Below are positions 48,950-57,374 of a stretch of 64,000 nucleotides of DNA, piece after piece. The translations under genes were made by a program, and so were the position numbers. Source of the stretch: Bacteroidetes bacterium 37-13. GTDB lineage: Bacteria > Bacteroidota > Bacteroidia > Chitinophagales > LD1. The notes under the pieces were generated by a model, which was not told the origin of the DNA, ran no database searches, and saw only the letters and a list, made by a program, of their open reading frames with translations. The stretch covers positions 1 to 64,000 of the forward strand of contig MKTC01000006.1 of NCBI GenBank assembly GCA_001897535.1, in the 5' to 3' direction. The stretch's first letter is position 1. Each line of letters opens with the position of its first letter.

Positions 48950-51361
48950 ATGATAGATAAAAAGACACTTTCTGAACGTGATATATGCACCAAGTTTATT
49001 ACTCCTGCGGTTGAAAAATCGGGTTGGAATACGCTGACACAACTATTGGAGGAAGTATCGTTCACGGACGGAAAAATATATGTTAGAGGTAAACTGACAG
49101 CGAGAGGAAATCAAAAACGTGCTGACTATATTCTATATTACAAACCGAATATTCCAATTGCAATTATTGAAGCTAAAGACAACAAACATTCAGTAAGAGC
49201 AGGAATTCAACAGGCTTTGGATTATGCTCAAATTCTTGACATTCCTTGTGTTTTCAGTAGCAACGGTGACGGCTTTTTATTTCACGACCGTACCGCAACA
49301 GACGGAAATATAGAAACTGAAATTGGCTTAGACGACTTCCCTACTCCGCAACAACTTTGGGAGAAATACAAAAAGTATAAAGGCATCACGACTGAATCGG
49401 CTGAAAAAATTGCTTCGCAAGACTATTATTTTGACGGTACAAACCGCAAACCAAGATACTACCAACAAATTGCCGTAAACAGAACTGTTGAAGCTATTGC
49501 CAACGGACAAGACAGAATACTGCTTGTAATGGCAACTGGAACTGGTAAGACATACACTGCTTTTCAAATTATTCACAGACTTTGGAAAAGCGGAGCAAAA
49601 AAACGGATTCTGTTTTTAGCCGACCGAAACGCTTTAATTGACCAAACTCGCAGAGGCGATTTCAAACATTTTAAAGATAAAATGACGGTGGTAAAACACC
49701 GACAAATTGATAAGAGCTATGAAATTTATTTGGCTTTGTATCAAGGTTTATCAGGTTCTGACGAAGATACGAATGTGTACAAACAGTTTTCACCTGACTT
49801 CTTTGATTTGATTGTAATTGACGAGTGCCACAGAGGAAGTGCCAAAGAAGACAGCAGTTGGAGAGAAATTTTATCCTATTTTAAAAATGCTACGCATATT
49901 GGTTTAACAGCCACTCCAAAAGAAACTAAAGAAACAAGCAACACCGAATATTTTGGTGACCCAGTTTATACCTATTCATTGAAACAAGGTATTGACGATG
50001 GTTTTCTTGCTCCTTATCGTGTGGTGAGAATTGGTTTGAACGTAGATGCCGAAGGCTGGCGACCAGAACAAGGCAAAACCGACAAAGACGGCAATCCTGT
50101 TGAAGATAGAATATACAACCGCAAAGACTTTGATCGCAATTTGGTAATTGAGGAACGGACAGAATTGGTTGCCAAAAAATTGACAGAGTTTTTAAAAGGT
50201 TACGACCGCTTCGCCAAAACGATTGTTTTTTGTGTGGACATTGACCACGCTGAACGAATGAGAACGGCATTAGCCAAACAAAATGCTGATTTAGTTGCCG
50301 AGAATTACAAATACGTAATGCAAATAACTGGCGATAATGACGAAGGCAAACGTGAATTAGACAACTTCATTAATCCCGAAGAAAAATATCCAGTCATTGC
50401 CACTACTTCTGAATTGATGACTACTGGTGTAGATGCACAAACTTGTAAAGTAATTGTATTGGATGCCAATATCAATTCAATGACCAAGTTCAAACAAATT
50501 ATTGGACGTGGAACCCGAATCAATGAGGAATACGGCAAAATGTATTTCACCATTCTTGATTTTAGAAACGCAACTGATTTGTTTGCTGATAAAGATTTTG
50601 ACGGTGACCCAATTCGTGTAAAACCAGTTTCGCAAGACGAAGATTTGTCATTGGTTGTAATAGAGGAAGAAGAAAACACCGTAAGCGTTTTAGATGAAAT
50701 CACAGGAGAAGAAATCAAATTTGAAAAGGCAACTATCCGCTATCCTGATGGTTCAAAATTGGGTGACAATTGGGTAGCCAAAGAGCCAAACCAACAAAGA
50801 GAAAAGGTTTATGTAAACGGTGTAGACGTTTCTGTTTTGGTGAGCCGTGAAATGTATTTTGACCAGCACGGAAAACCAATCACCACCAGTTTAAAAGACC
50901 ACACCAAAGAAATTATCCAAGAGCAATTTGCTTCCTTAGATGATTTTCTAAACAAGTGGAAAGGTTCTGACCGCAAAGAAGCCATCATTGCAGAATTGAT
51001 TGAACAGGGTGTAATGGTGGAAGCATTGTATGAAGCAGTTGACAAGCAAGTGGATTTGTTTGATTTAATTTGCCACGTTGCTTATGACCAATCACCAATG
51101 ACACGAAAAGAACGGGCAAACAACGTGAAGAAACGCAACTACTTTACCAAGTATGGCGAGCAAGCCCGAAAAGTATTGGAAGCCTTGTTAGACAAATATG
51201 CTGATGAAGGCATTACCAATATTGAAAGCATTGAAGTATTGAGAGTAAATCCCTTTGATGAATTTGGTTCACCACTTGAAATCATCAACGAGTTTGGCAG
51301 TAAAGAAAAATATTTGCAAGCCGTAAAAGAATTAGAAATTGAATTATACAAAACAGCATAA
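48950..51361 (+). CDS. hsdR: Type I restriction enzyme R subunit
   Basis: An 803-residue protein, the motor and nuclease of a type I restriction complex. The HSDR_N nuclease motif has Asp59 (KRADYILYYK), Glu74 and Lys76 (AIIEAKDNKH). The SF2 motor follows with Walker A MATGTGKT (about 196-203), DECHRG (about 290), GLTATPKET and IIGRGTRINEEYG. The C-terminal part is like EcoEI_R_C. Size and layout point to the EcoEI-like family (type IB) rather than EcoKI. The TAA stop shares its last A with the ATG of a transposase gene (TAATG). TATTTTGC lies upstream of the start. Confidence 0.95.
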   Translation: MIDKKTLSERDICTKFITPAVEKSGWNTLTQLLEEVSFTDGKIYVRGKLTARGNQKRADYILYYKPNIPIAIIEAKDNKHSVRAGIQQALDYAQILDIPCVFSSNGDGFLFHDRTATDGNIETEIGLDDFPTPQQLWEKYKKYKGITTESAEKIASQDYYFDGTNRKPRYYQQIAVNRTVEAIANGQDRILLVMATGTGKTYTAFQIIHRLWKSGAKKRILFLADRNALIDQTRRGDFKHFKDKMTVVKHRQIDKSYEIYLALYQGLSGSDEDTNVYKQFSPDFFDLIVIDECHRGSAKEDSSWREILSYFKNATHIGLTATPKETKETSNTEYFGDPVYTYSLKQGIDDGFLAPYRVVRIGLNVDAEGWRPEQGKTDKDGNPVEDRIYNRKDFDRNLVIEERTELVAKKLTEFLKGYDRFAKTIVFCVDIDHAERMRTALAKQNADLVAENYKYVMQITGDNDEGKRELDNFINPEEKYPVIATTSELMTTGVDAQTCKVIVLDANINSMTKFKQIIGRGTRINEEYGKMYFTILDFRNATDLFADKDFDGDPIRVKPVSQDEDLSLVVIEEEENTVSVLDEITGEEIKFEKATIRYPDGSKLGDNWVAKEPNQQREKVYVNGVDVSVLVSREMYFDQHGKPITTSLKDHTKEIIQEQFASLDDFLNKWKGSDRKEAIIAELIEQGVMVEALYEAVDKQVDLFDLICHVAYDQSPMTRKERANNVKKRNYFTKYGEQARKVLEALLDKYADEGITNIESIEVLRVNPFDEFGSPLEIINEFGSKEKYLQAVKELEIELYKTA

Positions 51362-51822
51362 TGGCAGGAACTTTTTCTCAAATCTATATTCAGGTAGTGT
51401 TTGCTGTTAAAAACAGAGATTGTCTAATTTTATCAAGCTGGGAAGAAGAATTGTATAAATATATTTCAGGTATAATTAGAAATAAGGAACAGAAACTTTT
51501 GGCAATAAACGGAATGCCAGATCATATTCATTTTTTAATTGGAATGAAACCCAGTTGTTGTCTTTCAGACTTAGTTAGGGAAATTAAGAAATCATCAAAT
51601 GAGTTTATCAATGAAAAGAAGTTCTCCAAATTCAAATTTCAATGGCAGGAAGGGTATGGTGCTTTTTCATATAGTCATTCTGCTTTAAACAATGTTATTC
51701 TATATATCAACAATCAAAAGCAACACCATAAAAAGCAAACTTTTAGAGAAGAATACAAGGATTTTTTAACCAAATTTCAAATTGAACATAAAGATGAATA
51801 TTTATTTGAATGGATTGAATAG
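51361..51822 (+). CDS. Y1/HUH transposase, RAYT-like (copy 1)
   Basis: A 153-residue IS200-like (Y1_Tnp) protein. The HUH motif is His55-Ile-His57 (GMPDHIHFLI), and the nucleophile is Tyr115 in NVILYINNQKQHHKKQTF. The length and the QHHKKQTFREEY end fit RAYTs, which act on REP hairpins, rather than mobile IS200. The start ATG overlaps the hsdR stop by one base, so translation is likely coupled. Three short hairpins follow within 120 bases. No transposon ends are seen, so this looks like a resident operon gene. Confidence 0.9.
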   Translation: MAGTFSQIYIQVVFAVKNRDCLILSSWEEELYKYISGIIRNKEQKLLAINGMPDHIHFLIGMKPSCCLSDLVREIKKSSNEFINEKKFSKFKFQWQEGYGAFSYSHSALNNVILYINNQKQHHKKQTFREEYKDFLTKFQIEHKDEYLFEWIE

Positions 51823-51825
51823 CCC

Positions 51826-51840
51826 GACCCTAAAAGGGTC
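51826..51840. repeat. REP-like hairpin 1a
   Basis: GACCCT (51826-51831) pairs with AGGGTC (51835-51840), loop AAA. It begins four bases after the RAYT stop and shares the GACCC/GGGTC core with hairpin 1b. Confidence 0.6.
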
Positions 51841-51875
51841 AAATATTTATAGCGAAAACGATTGCATATACCGTA

Positions 51876-51892
51876 CGACCCCTTCGGGGTCG
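51876..51892. repeat. REP-like hairpin 1b
   Basis: CGACCCC (51876-51882) pairs perfectly with GGGGTCG (51886-51892) around a TTC loop; the strongest of the three hairpins between copy 1 and hsdM. Confidence 0.7.
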
Positions 51893-51924
51893 CACCAATT
51901 AAATAAACAAATTCTATAAACATC

Positions 51925-51941
51925 CAATCCCTTCAGGATTG
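51925..51941. repeat. REP-like hairpin 1c
   Basis: CAATCC (51925-51930) pairs with GGATTG (51936-51941), loop CTTCA, about 30 bases before the hsdM start. Confidence 0.5.
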
Positions 51942-51970
51942 AAATGTGAAATTAGAATAAACACAAACAA

Positions 51971-53407
51971 ATGAGCAACTTATCAGGCATAGTAAAAAGT
52001 ATTCAGAATATAATGTGGCAAGACACAGGTCTTAATGGCGATGCACAACGCATTGAACAATTGGGCTGGATGCTTTTTCTAAAAATATTTTCGGATAAAG
52101 ACAAGGAATTAGAATTACTGGACGAAAACTACACTTCGCCCATTCCCGACAAATTCCATTGGGTAAAAGAAAAAGGCAATTGGGCAGGTGATGATGAAGG
52201 AATGACGGGTGATGAATTACTGAATTTTGTTGACCGTGAATTGTTTCCTGCACTTCGCAATTTAGATTTAAGCACAGGCAACCAACGTGCAGTAATTGTC
52301 CGTGAAGTGTTTGAGGGTAACAACAACTATATGAAAAGTGGCATCAACATTCGCAAGGTGTTGAACAAGCTAAACGAAATTGATTTTAATATTGCCAAAG
52401 ACCGCCACGCTTTTGGGGAACTGTACGAAACCATTTTAAAGGAATTGCAAAGTGCTGGCAAAAGCGGTGAGTTTTATACGCCCAGAGCCATTACGCAATT
52501 TATTACGGAAATGATAAATCCTCAATTGGGTGAAAAAGTGCTTGACCCTGCTTGCGGAACAGGTGGTTATTTAACTTGTGCCATTGAACATTTAAAGAAA
52601 CAAGCCAAAAATGTAAAAGACAGAAAAAGCATTGAAGAAAACATTGCAGGTTGGGAATACAAACCGTTGCCGTATTTATTGGCAACAACCAATTTGATTT
52701 TGCACGACATTGAAATACCGAACATCAAATTTGGTGATGCCTTAGACCAACCTTTGAGCAACTTTACAGAAAAACACCGTGTAAATGTAATATTGGCAAA
52801 CCCACCATTTGGTGGCATTGTAGCCAATAACAACGAAACAAATTTTCCGCAAACCTACCGTACAAAAGAAAGTGCCGACTTGTTTTTAATCCTGATGATT
52901 CATTTGCTAAAGCAAGACGGACGAGCAGGCATTGTTTTGCCAGATGGCAGTTTAACAGGCGATGGCGTAAAACAACGCATACGCCAAAAATTGTTGGAAG
53001 ATTGCAACTTGCACACCATTATTCGTTTGCCTAATTCCGTTTTTCAGCCTTATGCCACGGTGGCTACCAACTTATTGTTTTTTGACAAAGGCAAACCCAC
53101 CAAAGACATTTGGTATTACGAACACCGTATGCCCGCAGATTACAAGGCATACAGCAAAACAAGACCGATACAGTTAAAAGAATTTGACCCGATTAAAAAA
53201 TGGTGGAACAAACGCAAGGAAAGTGAAGTAGCCTGGAAAGTAAACATCAAAACCATTATTGAACGTGGTTATGATTTAGATATAAAAAACCCAACTAAGC
53301 CCGAAGAAGAAAAAGAATACAATAGTGCAGAACTGATGGAAATGCTAAACGCTTCTTTTGAGAAAAGTCACAAATTGTTGAGCCAACTAAAACAGGCTGT
53401 GAAATAA
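51971..53407 (+). CDS. hsdM: Type I restriction enzyme M subunit (N6-adenine methyltransferase)
   Basis: A 478-residue protein. With HsdS it methylates adenine at the recognition site and forms the core of the restriction complex. The AdoMet motif I is LDPACGTGGYLTCA (about 191-204) and the catalytic motif IV is ILANPPFGG (about 274-282). The HsdM N-terminal helical domain (TGLNGDAQRIEQLGWMLFLK) precedes, with the gate segment FGELYETILKELQSAGKSGE (in part) before motif I. Its TAA stop overlaps the ATG of the second transposase gene by one base. Confidence 0.95.
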   Translation: MSNLSGIVKSIQNIMWQDTGLNGDAQRIEQLGWMLFLKIFSDKDKELELLDENYTSPIPDKFHWVKEKGNWAGDDEGMTGDELLNFVDRELFPALRNLDLSTGNQRAVIVREVFEGNNNYMKSGINIRKVLNKLNEIDFNIAKDRHAFGELYETILKELQSAGKSGEFYTPRAITQFITEMINPQLGEKVLDPACGTGGYLTCAIEHLKKQAKNVKDRKSIEENIAGWEYKPLPYLLATTNLILHDIEIPNIKFGDALDQPLSNFTEKHRVNVILANPPFGGIVANNNETNFPQTYRTKESADLFLILMIHLLKQDGRAGIVLPDGSLTGDGVKQRIRQKLLEDCNLHTIIRLPNSVFQPYATVATNLLFFDKGKPTKDIWYYEHRMPADYKAYSKTRPIQLKEFDPIKKWWNKRKESEVAWKVNIKTIIERGYDLDIKNPTKPEEEKEYNSAELMEMLNASFEKSHKLLSQLKQAVK

Positions 53408-53844
53408 TGCCCTTTATAAAAGTATATATTCATTTTGTTTGGAGTACCAAGAGTAGGTATCCTTATCTTGATTCAAAAAAATTGAGAACACAAGTTTGGA
53501 ATCATATAAGAGATAATGCAAAAGAGAAAGGAATTTTCATTGATTTTATCAATGGATATAATGACCATTGCCACTGTTTGGTTTCATTGGGTGTTGACCA
53601 AACCATTCAGAAAGTAATGCAGTTAATAAAAGGAGAATCTTCTTTTTGGATAAATAAAAATAATCTAACAAAAGAAAAATTTGAATGGCAAGATGAATAT
53701 TTTGCGGTTTCAGTTTCTGAATCAATGATTGATAAAGTGCGAGAATATATTAAGAATCAAGAGGAGCATCATGGAAAAAAAACATTTCAAGAGGAATATG
53801 ATGAATTTATTAGCAGATATGGATTTGAAAAATATCAAGATTGA
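53407..53844 (+). CDS. Y1/HUH transposase, RAYT-like (copy 2)
   Basis: A 145-residue IS200-like protein, clearly diverged from copy 1. The HUH motif is His54-Cys-His56 (YNDHCHCLVS), and Tyr114 in VREYIKNQEEHHGKKTFQEE is the nucleophile. It starts on the last base of the hsdM stop (TAATG), the same coupling as copy 1 with hsdR. It is followed by a hairpin set with a GGC/GCC core and a tandem array. As in copy 1, no transposon ends are found. The low identity between copies by eye argues for two independent acquisitions rather than duplication. Confidence 0.9.
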   Translation: MPFIKVYIHFVWSTKSRYPYLDSKKLRTQVWNHIRDNAKEKGIFIDFINGYNDHCHCLVSLGVDQTIQKVMQLIKGESSFWINKNNLTKEKFEWQDEYFAVSVSESMIDKVREYIKNQEEHHGKKTFQEEYDEFISRYGFEKYQD

Positions 53845-53847
53845 GAA

Positions 53848-53863
53848 TTTGGCTAAAGCCAAA
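53848..53863. repeat. REP-like hairpin 2a (GGC-TAAA-GCC)
   Basis: TTTGGCT (53848-53854) and AGCCAAA (53857-53863), four bases after the RAYT copy 2 stop. The core recurs inverted in loop sequence at 54106 and 54149. Confidence 0.6.
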
Positions 53864-53883
53864 AATGATTTTGAATTTTGTTG

Positions 53884-53905
53884 GCCTCCATCTGAAGATG
53901 GAGGC
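53884..53905. repeat. 10-bp-stem hairpin seeding the tandem array
   Basis: GCCTCCATCT (53884-53893) pairs perfectly with AGATGGAGGC (53896-53905), loop GA. The right arm is the first part of the 15-bp unit that is then repeated. Confidence 0.7.
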
Positions 53906-54076
53906 AATTCAGATGGAGGCAATTCAGATGGAGGCAATTCAGATGGAGGCAATTCAGATGGAGGCAATTCAGATGGAGGCGATTCAGATGGAGGCAATTC
54001 AGATGGAGGCAATTCAAATGGAGGCAATTCAGATGAAGGCAATTCAAATGGAGGCAATTCAGATGAAGGCAATTCA
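53897..54076. repeat. 12 x 15-bp tandem repeat between hsdM-RAYT and hsdS
   Basis: Twelve head-to-tail units of GATGGAGGCAATTCA. Units 1-5, 7 and 8 are identical; unit 6 has one change, and units 9-12 carry one change each (AATGG or GATGA). There are no spacers. Because 15 is a multiple of three and the unit has no stop, all frames stay open, giving spurious frames on both strands (for example Asp-Gly-Gly-Asn-Ser repeats). I treat it as a non-coding minisatellite in the operon. Confidence 0.9.
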
Positions 54077-54097
54077 AAAGCAGGAGAACTTTTGAAT
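54072..54097. repeat. Hairpin at the end of the array
   Basis: ATTCAAAAG (54072-54080) pairs with CTTTTGAAT (54089-54097), loop of eight. Confidence 0.5.
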
Positions 54098-54098
54098 A

Positions 54099-54121
54099 GG
54101 AATGCGGCTTTAGCCCATTCC
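54099..54121. repeat. REP-like hairpin 2b
   Basis: GGAATG...CATTCC enclosing GGC-TTTA-GCC, with one bulged C at 54105. Same GGC/GCC core as hairpin 2a. Confidence 0.6.
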
Positions 54122-54146
54122 ATTAGAAAAAAATAAAAACAATAAA

Positions 54147-54160
54147 TTGGCTTTAGCCAA
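54147..54160. repeat. REP-like hairpin 2c
   Basis: TTGGCT and AGCCAA around TT, 15 bases before the hsdS ATG; the complement-loop version of hairpin 2a. Confidence 0.6.
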
Positions 54161-54175
54161 ATAAATTAAATATAA

Positions 54176-55516
54176 ATGAGTTGGAAGAAAGTAAAATTGG
54201 GGGAATTGTGTTTAATTGAAAAAGGAAATACAGGAATTCAAAAGGCAATAATAGGAGATTTCCCGTTGGTTGTTACAAGTGAAGAAAGAAAATCACACAA
54301 TGAATTTCAATTTGATGATGAAGCAGTTATCATTCCTTTGGTTTCTTCAACTGGACATGGACACAAAAGCCTAAAGAGAATTCACTTTCAAACTGGCAAG
54401 TTTGCAGTTGGCTCAATACTATGTGCTGTTATTCCAAAAGACAAAACTATTCTCAATGCAGAATATCTTTATCGTTATCTTGATTTAAATAGAGAAGACG
54501 AATTAGTTTCAAGAATGAAAGGCATGGCAAATGTTTCATTGCCAATTAAAGAAATTGCAAAAATTGAAATTCCTTTACCTCCGATTGAAGAACAAAGAAA
54601 ATTTGTTGAAGCTTATGCAGAATTAGAATGCAATAATGAAGACCTTTCCACCGAACTAACCCACCAACTCACTTTAGTAAAAAAACTCCGTCAGCAATTA
54701 TTGCAAGATGCGGTGCAAGGCAAATTGGTGGAGCAAAACCCAAAAGACGAACCAGCCAGTGAATTGCTCAAAAAAATAAAAGCAGAAAAGGAAAAACTGA
54801 TTGCTGAAAACCTGCCTGCCGGCAAGGCAGGGAAACTCAAAAAAGAAAAAGAACTTCCACCCATCAAACCCGAAGAAATTCCTTTTGAAATTCCTGAAAA
54901 TTGGGTGTGGTGTAGATTGGGGGAGATTATTCAATACACAGAAAATTTAGATATTCAAAAGCACCTTTCACCAGAAACAATTATTAACTACATTGATATT
55001 GATGCGATAGACAACAAAAATCAAGTTATTAGAGAAGTAAAACAAAAAACGGTTGGTGAATTATCAACCAGAGCAAGAAGAGTTTTAAAGAAAGGTTACA
55101 TAATGTATTCTACGGTAAGACCTTATTTAAAAAATATTGCAACAATTGATATTGAATTAGAAAATTTTATTGGGTCCACTGGATTCAATGTCTTTAAAAC
55201 AATTTTGGTTGATTCAAATTATGTTTTTAATTTTTTACTTACACCAAAATTGAATGATTATTTCAAAGAAATGATGGTTGGTTTTAATTCACCAAGTATT
55301 ACAAATGAGCAATTTGAACAAACATTATTTCCACTTCCACCATTAGAAGAACAAAATCGCATCGTTCAAAAATTAGACGAACTAATGCAGTATTGCAATG
55401 AGTTGGAAGCAAGCATCAAACAAAGTGAATCACAAAATGAAAAACTACTGCAACAGGTTTTGAGAGAGGCGTTGAGCCAGCCTCTCCCTATGGAATCCAA
55501 CGCTTATCAAAGTTAG
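54176..55516 (+). CDS. hsdS: Type I restriction enzyme specificity subunit
   Basis: A 446-residue protein with two target-recognition domains (about 1-150 and 235-395), each followed by a conserved helical spacer: LPPIEEQRKFVEAYAEL and LPPLEEQNRIVQKLDELMQY. It determines the DNA sequence methylated and cut by the HsdMR complex. Between the domains the linker contains LPAGKAG (213-219), encoded by a 21-base palindrome, a likely REP-type insertion. The last nine or so codons (to ESNAYQS) lie antisense within the end of menB, so its native tail was probably replaced on integration. Confidence 0.93.
   Translation: MSWKKVKLGELCLIEKGNTGIQKAIIGDFPLVVTSEERKSHNEFQFDDEAVIIPLVSSTGHGHKSLKRIHFQTGKFAVGSILCAVIPKDKTILNAEYLYRYLDLNREDELVSRMKGMANVSLPIKEIAKIEIPLPPIEEQRKFVEAYAELECNNEDLSTELTHQLTLVKKLRQQLLQDAVQGKLVEQNPKDEPASELLKKIKAEKEKLIAENLPAGKAGKLKKEKELPPIKPEEIPFEIPENWVWCRLGEIIQYTENLDIQKHLSPETIINYIDIDAIDNKNQVIREVKQKTVGELSTRARRVLKKGYIMYSTVRPYLKNIATIDIELENFIGSTGFNVFKTILVDSNYVFNFLLTPKLNDYFKEMMVGFNSPSITNEQFEQTLFPLPPLEEQNRIVQKLDELMQYCNELEASIKQSESQNEKLLQQVLREALSQPLPMESNAYQS
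54811..54831. repeat. Palindrome inserted in frame in hsdS linker
   Basis: CCTGCCT (54811-54817) and AGGCAGG (54825-54831) flank GCCGGCA. It is GC-rich in an AT-rich gene. Very similar CCTGCC...GGCAGG palindromes are scattered in many Bacteroidota genomes (memory, not searched). Confidence 0.65.
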
Positions 55517-56443: not shown

Positions 56444-56462
56444 TGAAGTTGTTTAAACTTTT
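56444..56462 (+). repeat. Left terminal inverted repeat of IS
   Basis: 19 bases that match the right end exactly in inverse orientation; contains GTTTAAAC. Confidence 0.9.
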
Positions 56463-56495
56463 ATACTCCTAACAATTAGAGTCTTTAAAAAGCGG

Positions 56496-56520
56496 GATAG
56501 GATAGGATAGGATAGGATAG
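56496..56520 (+). repeat. 5 x GATAG pentanucleotide repeat in IS leader
   Basis: Five perfect units, no spacer. Possible slippage site; the region can fold with 56540-56545. Confidence 0.85.
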
Positions 56521-56596
56521 AAAAAAATAAGCTACCTACCCCGCTAAAAATGATAATACTAATCGAACTTAAAGTAAAAAAGAGATTATTCCGAAT

Positions 56597-57365
56597 TTGC
56601 CCAAAGCAAAGCGAGGATACAGCAGTAAAGTTCCGATGCATTGCATCATAACTGCGATTCTATATAAGCTAAAGACTGGAATACAGTGGCGATTATTACC
56701 TATAAAAGAATTTTTTTCTGCCCATGAATACAGCTGGAATAGCGTGTATCATCATTATCAAAAATGGAGCAAAGCAGGAGTATGGGAGCAAATTTGAACA
56801 AAATTGTTAGACCCCCACCGTGCAGATATTGATATGTCTTCTGTGCAGTTAGACCGTAGTCATACACCCGTCAAAAGAGGTGGAATGCAAGTAGGTTATC
56901 AAGGGCAAAAAAAGACCAAAACAAGTAATTTGCTATTCCTTACAGATAATCGGGGCTTACCACTTGCATGTAGCAATGTAATAGCAGAACAACACAATGA
57001 TGCCTATAAACTGGAAGCATACATGATACAAATTTTATCACAACTCAAAAACGCAAATCTTAATCACAGGGGCTTATTTTTTAAATGCAGATGCAGGCTT
57101 TGATACTGAATCTTTCAAAACTTATTGTAGAGAGCAAGAAATAATACCCAATATTTATGGCAATCCGAGAAATGGAAATATAGAGCCCCAAAATCATGAA
57201 TCTATTTTTGATAGGCTTCTCTACAAGTGCAGATATGTAATTGAAAGAACCAATGCTTGGTTAGATGCTTTTAAAACTCTTTTAGTGAGATTTGAAACCA
57301 ATGATAAACATTGGAGGTCTTGGCATTTTATTGCCTTTATCATAATTTTGTTGAGAAAAGTTTAA
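56597..57365 (+). pseudogene. IS5-family transposase, broken by a nonsense codon and a frameshift
   Basis: The product reads PKAKRGYSSKVPMHC and LKTGIQWRLLPIKEF (DUF4096-type N-terminal part), then TGA at 56795-56797 stands where IS5 relatives usually have Trp (WEQI-stop-TKLLDPHRADID). The DDE half follows in the same frame (VQLDRSHTPVKRGG) up to 57103. Homology continues one frame over from about 57066 (TGAYFLNADAGFDTE, then YVIERTNAWLDAFKTLL) to TAA 57363-57365, inside the right terminal repeat. The first codons upstream are also out of frame. Some IS5 members use programmed frameshifting, but an internal stop plus loss of the start makes a dead copy more likely. Confidence 0.85.
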
Positions 57366-57374
57366 ACAACTTCA
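57356..57374 (-). repeat. Right terminal inverted repeat of IS
   Basis: Exact inverse of 56444-56462; overlaps the transposase stop codon. Confidence 0.9.

Follow-up and report, generated by a model that had tools for sequence, protein, structure and literature searches.

Quentin et al. (2018; PMC6006769) presented subclass 1.2 of the TnpA-Y1 proteins as a distinct HUH group without the properties of insertion sequences; its members carry the signature Y-x3-Q-x2-HH and generally lack the typical terminal secondary structures of IS200, the table of that paper enters REP-like sequences as "no" for them, and the word "restriction" is absent from its main text. The TnpA-REP enzymes, or REP-associated tyrosine transposases (RAYTs), are described as processing cognate single-stranded palindromes, the repetitive extragenic palindromes (REPs), and as co-evolving with them (PMC8266576), and genes embedded in type I restriction operons are already known, TgvAB of Vibrio cholerae being an example (PMC11411939). 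The locus described here lies in a window of 64,000 nucleotides (nt), namely positions 1 to 64,000 of contig MKTC01000006.1 of Bacteroidetes bacterium 37-13, in which two genes for predicted single-tyrosine HUH nucleases, Y1a and Y1b, each followed by DNA hairpins, occupy the two junctions of an hsdR-hsdM-hsdS operon. The explanation that we favour, and hold to be the probable one with some reserve, is that cassettes made up of an HUH gene and its hairpins repeatedly enter the cargo slots of restriction operons and are translated there by coupling, as passengers rather than as restriction subunits. Among the matches listed in the open-licence PMC literature (preprints and subscription papers lie outside it), no title or abstract reports that hsd operons carry Y1/HUH genes as cargo.

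Judged by its profile matches, the operon is a type I restriction-modification system of the EcoAI family in which HsdR, HsdM and HsdS are encoded together on the forward strand; a second HsdM of the genome sits on another contig. The restriction subunit gene hsdR (48950-51361) scores 1177.7 bits against NF046051 (cut-off 550) and matches PF08463 (EcoEI_R_C) to the end of the profile, the N6-adenine methyltransferase gene hsdM (51971-53407) scores 248.5 bits with PF02384 and 38.5 bits with PF12161, and the specificity gene hsdS (54176-55516) matches PF01420 in two stretches (93.7 bits). Y1a (51361-51822, forward strand, 153 amino acids) begins on the last base of the hsdR stop codon and Y1b (53407-53844, forward strand, 145 amino acids) on the last base of the hsdM stop codon, the sequence TAATG occurring at both junctions (GCATAATGGCAGG at 51361 and GAAATAATGCCC at 53407) with one A common to stop and start. 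Behind Y1a lies a group of hairpins (51826-51943) with stems at 51826-51840, 51876-51892 and 51923-51943. Behind Y1b lie two hairpins (53848-53863 and 53884-53905), then a tandem array of 12 copies of a 15-nt unit (53896-54076), whose unit is one arm of the 53884-53905 hairpin, and finally a closing hairpin (54147-54160) directly 5' of hsdS and inverted relative to 53849-53862. An open reading frame beginning with TTG at 53729-54136 was rejected as a gene: it extends across the 15-nt repeats, matches nothing in Pfam and covers part of Y1b in a different frame.

Both small proteins lie far above the PF01797 (Y1_Tnp) cut-off of 23 bits, at 90.7 bits for Y1a and 98.7 bits for Y1b, and they are the only strong matches to that family in the genome, two weak ones occurring elsewhere. 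By their HUH motif (DHIH from residue 54 in Y1a, DHCH in Y1b) and by Y-x3-Q-x2-HH (from residue 115 in Y1a) they fit TnpA-Y1 subclass 1.2 as defined in PMC6006769, and they resemble that subclass further in their length of about 150 amino acids, their occurrence in Bacteroidota and their low genomic copy number; they differ from its description in that hairpins lie behind many of the Y1 genes studied here and that restriction operons are recurrent hosts. A RAYT (TnpA-REP, class 2) identity was considered and rejected because both proteins have Y-x3-Q in place of Y-x3-NP and because they reach only 32.1 and 34.8 bits with the REP model NF047646, under its cut-off of 80. They resemble the enzymes of PMC8266576 in being single-tyrosine HUH proteins beside palindromes, and they differ from them not only in the signature but also in the absence of two searched hairpin motifs from the rest of the genome: the 51876-51892 motif behind Y1a was not found elsewhere in the whole genome with up to 2 mismatches, and the 14-nt core of the first Y1b hairpin, searched as an exact match, occurs only at 53849-53862 and 54147-54160. 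The many dispersed cognate REPs that mark a RAYT are thus not seen for these two motifs, which are confined to the operon. The cut-off of the IS200/IS605 model NF033573 (55) is passed by both proteins (65.2 and 66.9 bits), and the IS608 transposase (PDB 2a6m, 2vhg) is matched by sequence, with E-values for 2a6m of 1e-4 for Y1a and 9e-6 for Y1b; the difference from IS608 TnpA is that the coupled copies have neither a left-end hairpin nor repeated like copies. No PADLOC model was matched by the Y1 proteins of the window. The original prediction, made from the sequence before this analysis, had described RAYT-like transposase genes fused to hsdR and hsdM by exact start/stop overlaps and encoding two clearly different proteins; the overlaps hold to the base and the proteins are only 33% identical over 139 aligned positions, whereas the genes overlap the hsd genes instead of being fused to them, and the RAYT label gives way to the signature of subclass 1.2.

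The character of the two junctions was examined in 80 loci whose HsdM is 77-98% identical to that of the window, drawn from named genomes that represent several families of Bacteroidota and also a few other phyla, a spread which suggests that the operon may be transferred between lineages. Junctions of at least 150 nt, with the window counted, make up 57 of 79 at hsdR|hsdM and 25 of 77 at hsdM|hsdS; 7 such junctions contain no forward-strand open reading frame of 90 amino acids, and the wide junctions together hold 98 open reading frames, with contents that are highly variable among the relatives. Profile scanning covered 76 of these 98 (window-type Y1 genes and short or fragmentary frames were excluded), and the commonest Pfam families among them are DUF1016, GmrSD and Schlafen AlbA_2, with 10 each, the PADLOC candidates PDC-S02 and HEC-05 being present in 10 and 7. 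The first cargo gene starts between -4 and +6 nt from the upstream stop codon in 47 of 63 junctions with cargo other than Y1 (48 of 66 if three first cargo frames that are hsd gene fragments are included) and in 7 of 9 with Y1 cargo (5 of 7 without the window), so that the close join at the front is to be credited to the slot and not to the Y1 genes. The rear differs: with Y1 cargo a median of 169 nt separates the last cargo gene from the hsd gene that follows, with other cargo a median of 3.5 nt; the Y1 gap is filled with hairpins in the cases inspected, and the wide rear gap is accordingly a property of the Y1 cassette. At 3 of 25 wide hsdM|hsdS junctions (L079, L147 and L130; Y1 is the cargo in two of them) the 3' tail of hsdM is present a second time, over 19-32 nt that end immediately before hsdS, which is possibly a mark of the route by which cargo enters. 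More distant Y1 genes of class 2, with Y-x3-NP, were also observed in the hsdM|hsdS slot, at L147:4630-5100 (overlapping hsdM by 4 nt) and L087:10605-11276; these were scored as other cargo in the slot counts.

Within the same 80 loci, subclass 1.2-like Y1 genes occur 9 times inside the span of the hsd operon (490 kb in total) and once outside it (726 kb), the inside cases being those of L079 (two), L080, L084, L106, L110, L111, L114 and L117 and the outside case lying behind the hsdS of L106. Recurrence was also assessed from the side of the Y1 genes, in a survey of 163 unique genes at 165 loci, 45 of them from the same family and the rest from searches of the phylum and class, with gene starts and neighbours taken from a simple caller of open reading frames and not from a gene finder. 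Two loci that had been taken for their proximity to an HsdM match (L264 and L268) were left out of the counts, and 7 of the 161 untargeted rows are hsd-adjacent (L275 with two, L317, L340, L348, L352 and L357). After removal of nine uninformative contig-end rows, the Y1 gene abuts its upstream gene within 20 nt in 4 of 6 hsd-operon rows and in 3 of 146 others (Fisher p = 2.4e-5). The upstream gene of the four coupled hsd rows is hsdR in three, all encoding divergent HsdR proteins (L317, L348, L352), and a Bro-N cargo gene in L340; that of the three coupled non-hsd rows is a ResIII helicase gene (L338), a xanthine dehydrogenase-like gene (L360) and an unmatched open reading frame of 96 amino acids (L350). 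In L275 a divergent type I operon has Y1a genes on both sides of hsdM, which reads as two open reading frames, an arrangement like that of the window; the contig starts before the first Y1a, so that hsdR falls outside the sequence. In the same-family sample, some contigs of which are short, a recognised hsd gene was found at 0 of 45 strong Y1 loci and a Y1 gene abutting its upstream gene at 0 of the 43 whose Y1 frame could be scored, which argues that the arrangement in the window is not due to chance.

A class-wide search with Y1a points the same way, since at least 8 of the 149 listed rows, on 7 contigs, lie in hsd operons, compared with 0.29 expected within 4 kb (Poisson p of about 3e-8 for 7 or more). 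The expectation is based on 258 HsdM_N matches, a genome size estimated at 3.55 Mb on average and a flank of 4 kb in either direction; because a profile broader than PF12161 served to recognise part of the 8, the HsdM density was doubled as an alternative, which gives 0.59 expected and a p-value of 3e-6. The flanks examined were those of 66 among the first 68 Y1a rows and those of L369 and L370, which were added by crossing the 149 listed Y1a rows with the listed HsdM_N rows.

The hairpins go with the class of the Y1 protein in part of the loci. When all loci with enough flank are counted, the core motif of the Y1b hairpin lies within 250 nt at 30 of 67 Y1b-class loci and 0 of 92 Y1a-class loci, and a looser pattern of the Y1a type is found at 35 of 92 Y1a-class and 7 of 67 Y1b-class loci. 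In a set of hand-picked relatives, hairpins of the type of its class lie behind the Y1 gene in most cases, inside as well as outside an hsd operon, with no clear case at L056 and at the Y1a of L106. Copy number varies in the array, the arrays of L079 and L080 holding just a few of the 15-nt copies compared with the 12 in the window.

The Y1 genes of the window are embedded cargo, lying between intact hsd genes and being absent from close relatives. Both junctions are empty in L083, L086 and L089, and in L080, where Y1b is present behind hsdM, hsdR and hsdM are 6 nt apart; the ends of HsdM and HsdS at the occupied hsdM|hsdS junction of the window are the same as at the empty site. The likeness to TgvAB (PMC11411939) is in the presence of extra genes between hsd genes that are themselves unbroken, and the difference is that the cargo of the window is a predicted HUH nuclease with DNA hairpins and not a known restriction enzyme. 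Between the window and L079 the synonymous divergence (dS) of Y1a is 1.82, which is near saturation, compared with 0.57 for hsdR and 0.50 for hsdM, which indicates that Y1a was separately gained or exchanged. The proteins are kept by selection, as shown by ratios of nonsynonymous to synonymous divergence (dN/dS) of 0.04 for Y1a (window and L079) and 0.13 for Y1b (window and L080), and in the 21 hsd-linked Y1 copies both motif patterns are intact in 19 and the Y pattern in all 21. A single hsd-specific Y1 lineage travelling with the operon was considered and rejected, because on two trees of 172 and 170 proteins (21 and 23 labelled rows, with L338 scored as free) the hsd label requires 15 and 16 changes, although well-supported branches force only 7 and 5 of these, as minimum numbers, and the label shows clustering.

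At 154 loci with free-standing Y1 genes, the gene upstream of Y1 is co-oriented in 112 of 133 cases, as judged with the crude gene caller. The idea that free Y1 genes occur mainly in defence islands is unsupported by a random, size-limited part of their neighbours (136), in which no Pfam family is found in more than 4 and no PADLOC model in more than 2; 47 PADLOC models match at least one such neighbour at an E-value of 1e-10, a figure that has no baseline, and there may be a mild excess. In L338 (3938-7487) the ResIII helicase gene is whole and abuts Y1a, and at L371:6844-7538 a free Y1a is preceded by about 200 bp that match the end of that helicase gene, so a Y1 gene can outlive its upstream partner. 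Searching plasmids with Y1b gave 2 records, both at most 36% identical, and searching phages with Y1a gave no match. In a same-genus genome (L067, G028:C32) a Y1 gene is split in two, with a stop codon inside one of the parts, and has no recognised hsd gene beside it.

The mechanism that we propose for the cassettes treats the hsdR|hsdM and hsdM|hsdS junctions as cargo slots, each of which would have received a subclass 1.2-like Y1 gene and hairpins of the corresponding class type. Given the overlap between the Y1 start and the hsd stop, ribosomes that have just completed HsdR or HsdM most likely re-initiate and so translate the Y1 protein. The enzyme would then most likely nick and rejoin its own hairpins as single strands. 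Such an activity would renew the array or multiply its copies and so favour the persistence or movement of the cassette, and the cassettes would use the operon for expression and spread, entering it repeatedly as other cargo families do. Several observations weigh against this explanation. The hsd label is clustered on the trees, since shuffled labels need about 20-22 changes and 0 of 500 shuffles needs as few as the real labels, and Y1 genes abut an upstream gene far less often away from restriction loci, a contrast that could reflect selection for a shared function. Neither hairpin pattern is present in 57 of 92 Y1a-class and 32 of 67 Y1b-class loci, over half of the total, and stems of at least 7 within 100 nt are in just modest excess, at 63 of 157 Y1 loci compared with 55 of 261 control gene ends. 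The region has 5 terminator-like sites compared with 2.0 expected, and four of the five are the Y1 hairpins, which may therefore act on transcription instead (a promoter scan gave about the chance number, 13 compared with 10.9 expected). No upstream, left-end hairpin was found at the coupled Y1 copies, though hairpins lie downstream, so that they are not like complete IS200/IS605 elements; and both the movement of the cassette and the nuclease activity are at this stage predictions from sequence.

The main rival, which we consider somewhat unlikely, is that the Y1 proteins serve the restriction system as accessory defence nucleases and act on single-stranded DNA from HsdR translocation or phage replication as a second layer like other embedded cargo nucleases. 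It is kept alive by the coupling of Y1 genes to divergent hsdR genes in L317, L348 and L352, beside which stands the coupling to the helicase gene in L338, and it agrees with the purifying selection, with the intact motifs of the hsd-linked copies and with the known or candidate defence genes carried by the same slots (DUF1016/YhcG, GmrSD, Schlafen AlbA and Fic; PDC-S02 and HEC-05), so that a role in defence is possible. HsdR is not a constant partner, however, as Y1 genes are also found following hsdM, hsdS or other cargo genes; near relatives often stand alone, PADLOC recognises neither protein of the window, and the class-type hairpins behind many Y1 genes point to a substrate of their own. 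The original prediction had proposed that the HUH enzymes may be functional partners in the operon and that recurrent overlaps of 1-4 bases behind hsdR or hsdM in other strains would support a link. Tight coupling behind hsdR or hsdM does recur, also in divergent type I operons and above the level for other genes, and together with purifying selection it supports the prediction in part, but its being shared by most non-Y1 cargo makes it a property of the slot and limits the case for a functional partner. Of the two findings that the prediction had named as telling against a link, uninterrupted hsd genes were indeed seen in relatives (L080, L083, L086 and L089), while insertion at random positions was not, the placement of Y1 genes in operons being non-random.

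That the HUH enzyme and its hairpins instead cause cargo or hsdS to be exchanged at the junctions, and so give the operon its variability, is improbable in our estimation: the variable junction contents, the hsdM tail copies before hsdS and the excess synonymous divergence of Y1a over its hsd neighbours would all be expected, but most wide junctions have no Y1 gene, so that exchange needs none, and plain homologous recombination in the conserved hsd genes would suffice. Ordinary IS200/IS605 insertions that landed at gene ends by chance would account for the NF033573 scores and for the tendency of free Y1 genes to follow a co-oriented gene, yet this explanation is very unlikely, given that the genome has just two strong copies, both in this operon and barely alike, that the coupled copies have no left-end hairpin and no like copies, and that the hsd genes are undisrupted and the placement is far from random. 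Beside the passenger cassettes that we favour, a bolder proposal, to which we attach rather little probability, is that subclass 1.2 Y1 proteins and their hairpins constitute an unrecognised restriction-associated element, in which the enzyme would be made where the restriction motor or methyltransferase is translated and would act on single-stranded DNA exposed by restriction or phage replication, thereby linking restriction to single-strand cleavage or to the renewal of the cargo of the operon itself.

Beside the operon, a perfect pair of 19-nt inverted repeats at 56444-57374 encloses two transposase-like pieces of open reading frame (56597-56797 and 56804-57103), and this structure is probably a decayed insertion sequence.

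The kinds of cargo found between hsd genes now include a DNA-hairpin cassette. With a tie to restriction operons that is recurrent and statistically supported, and with hairpins linked to the class of the protein, the function of subclass 1.2 becomes accessible to laboratory experiments.

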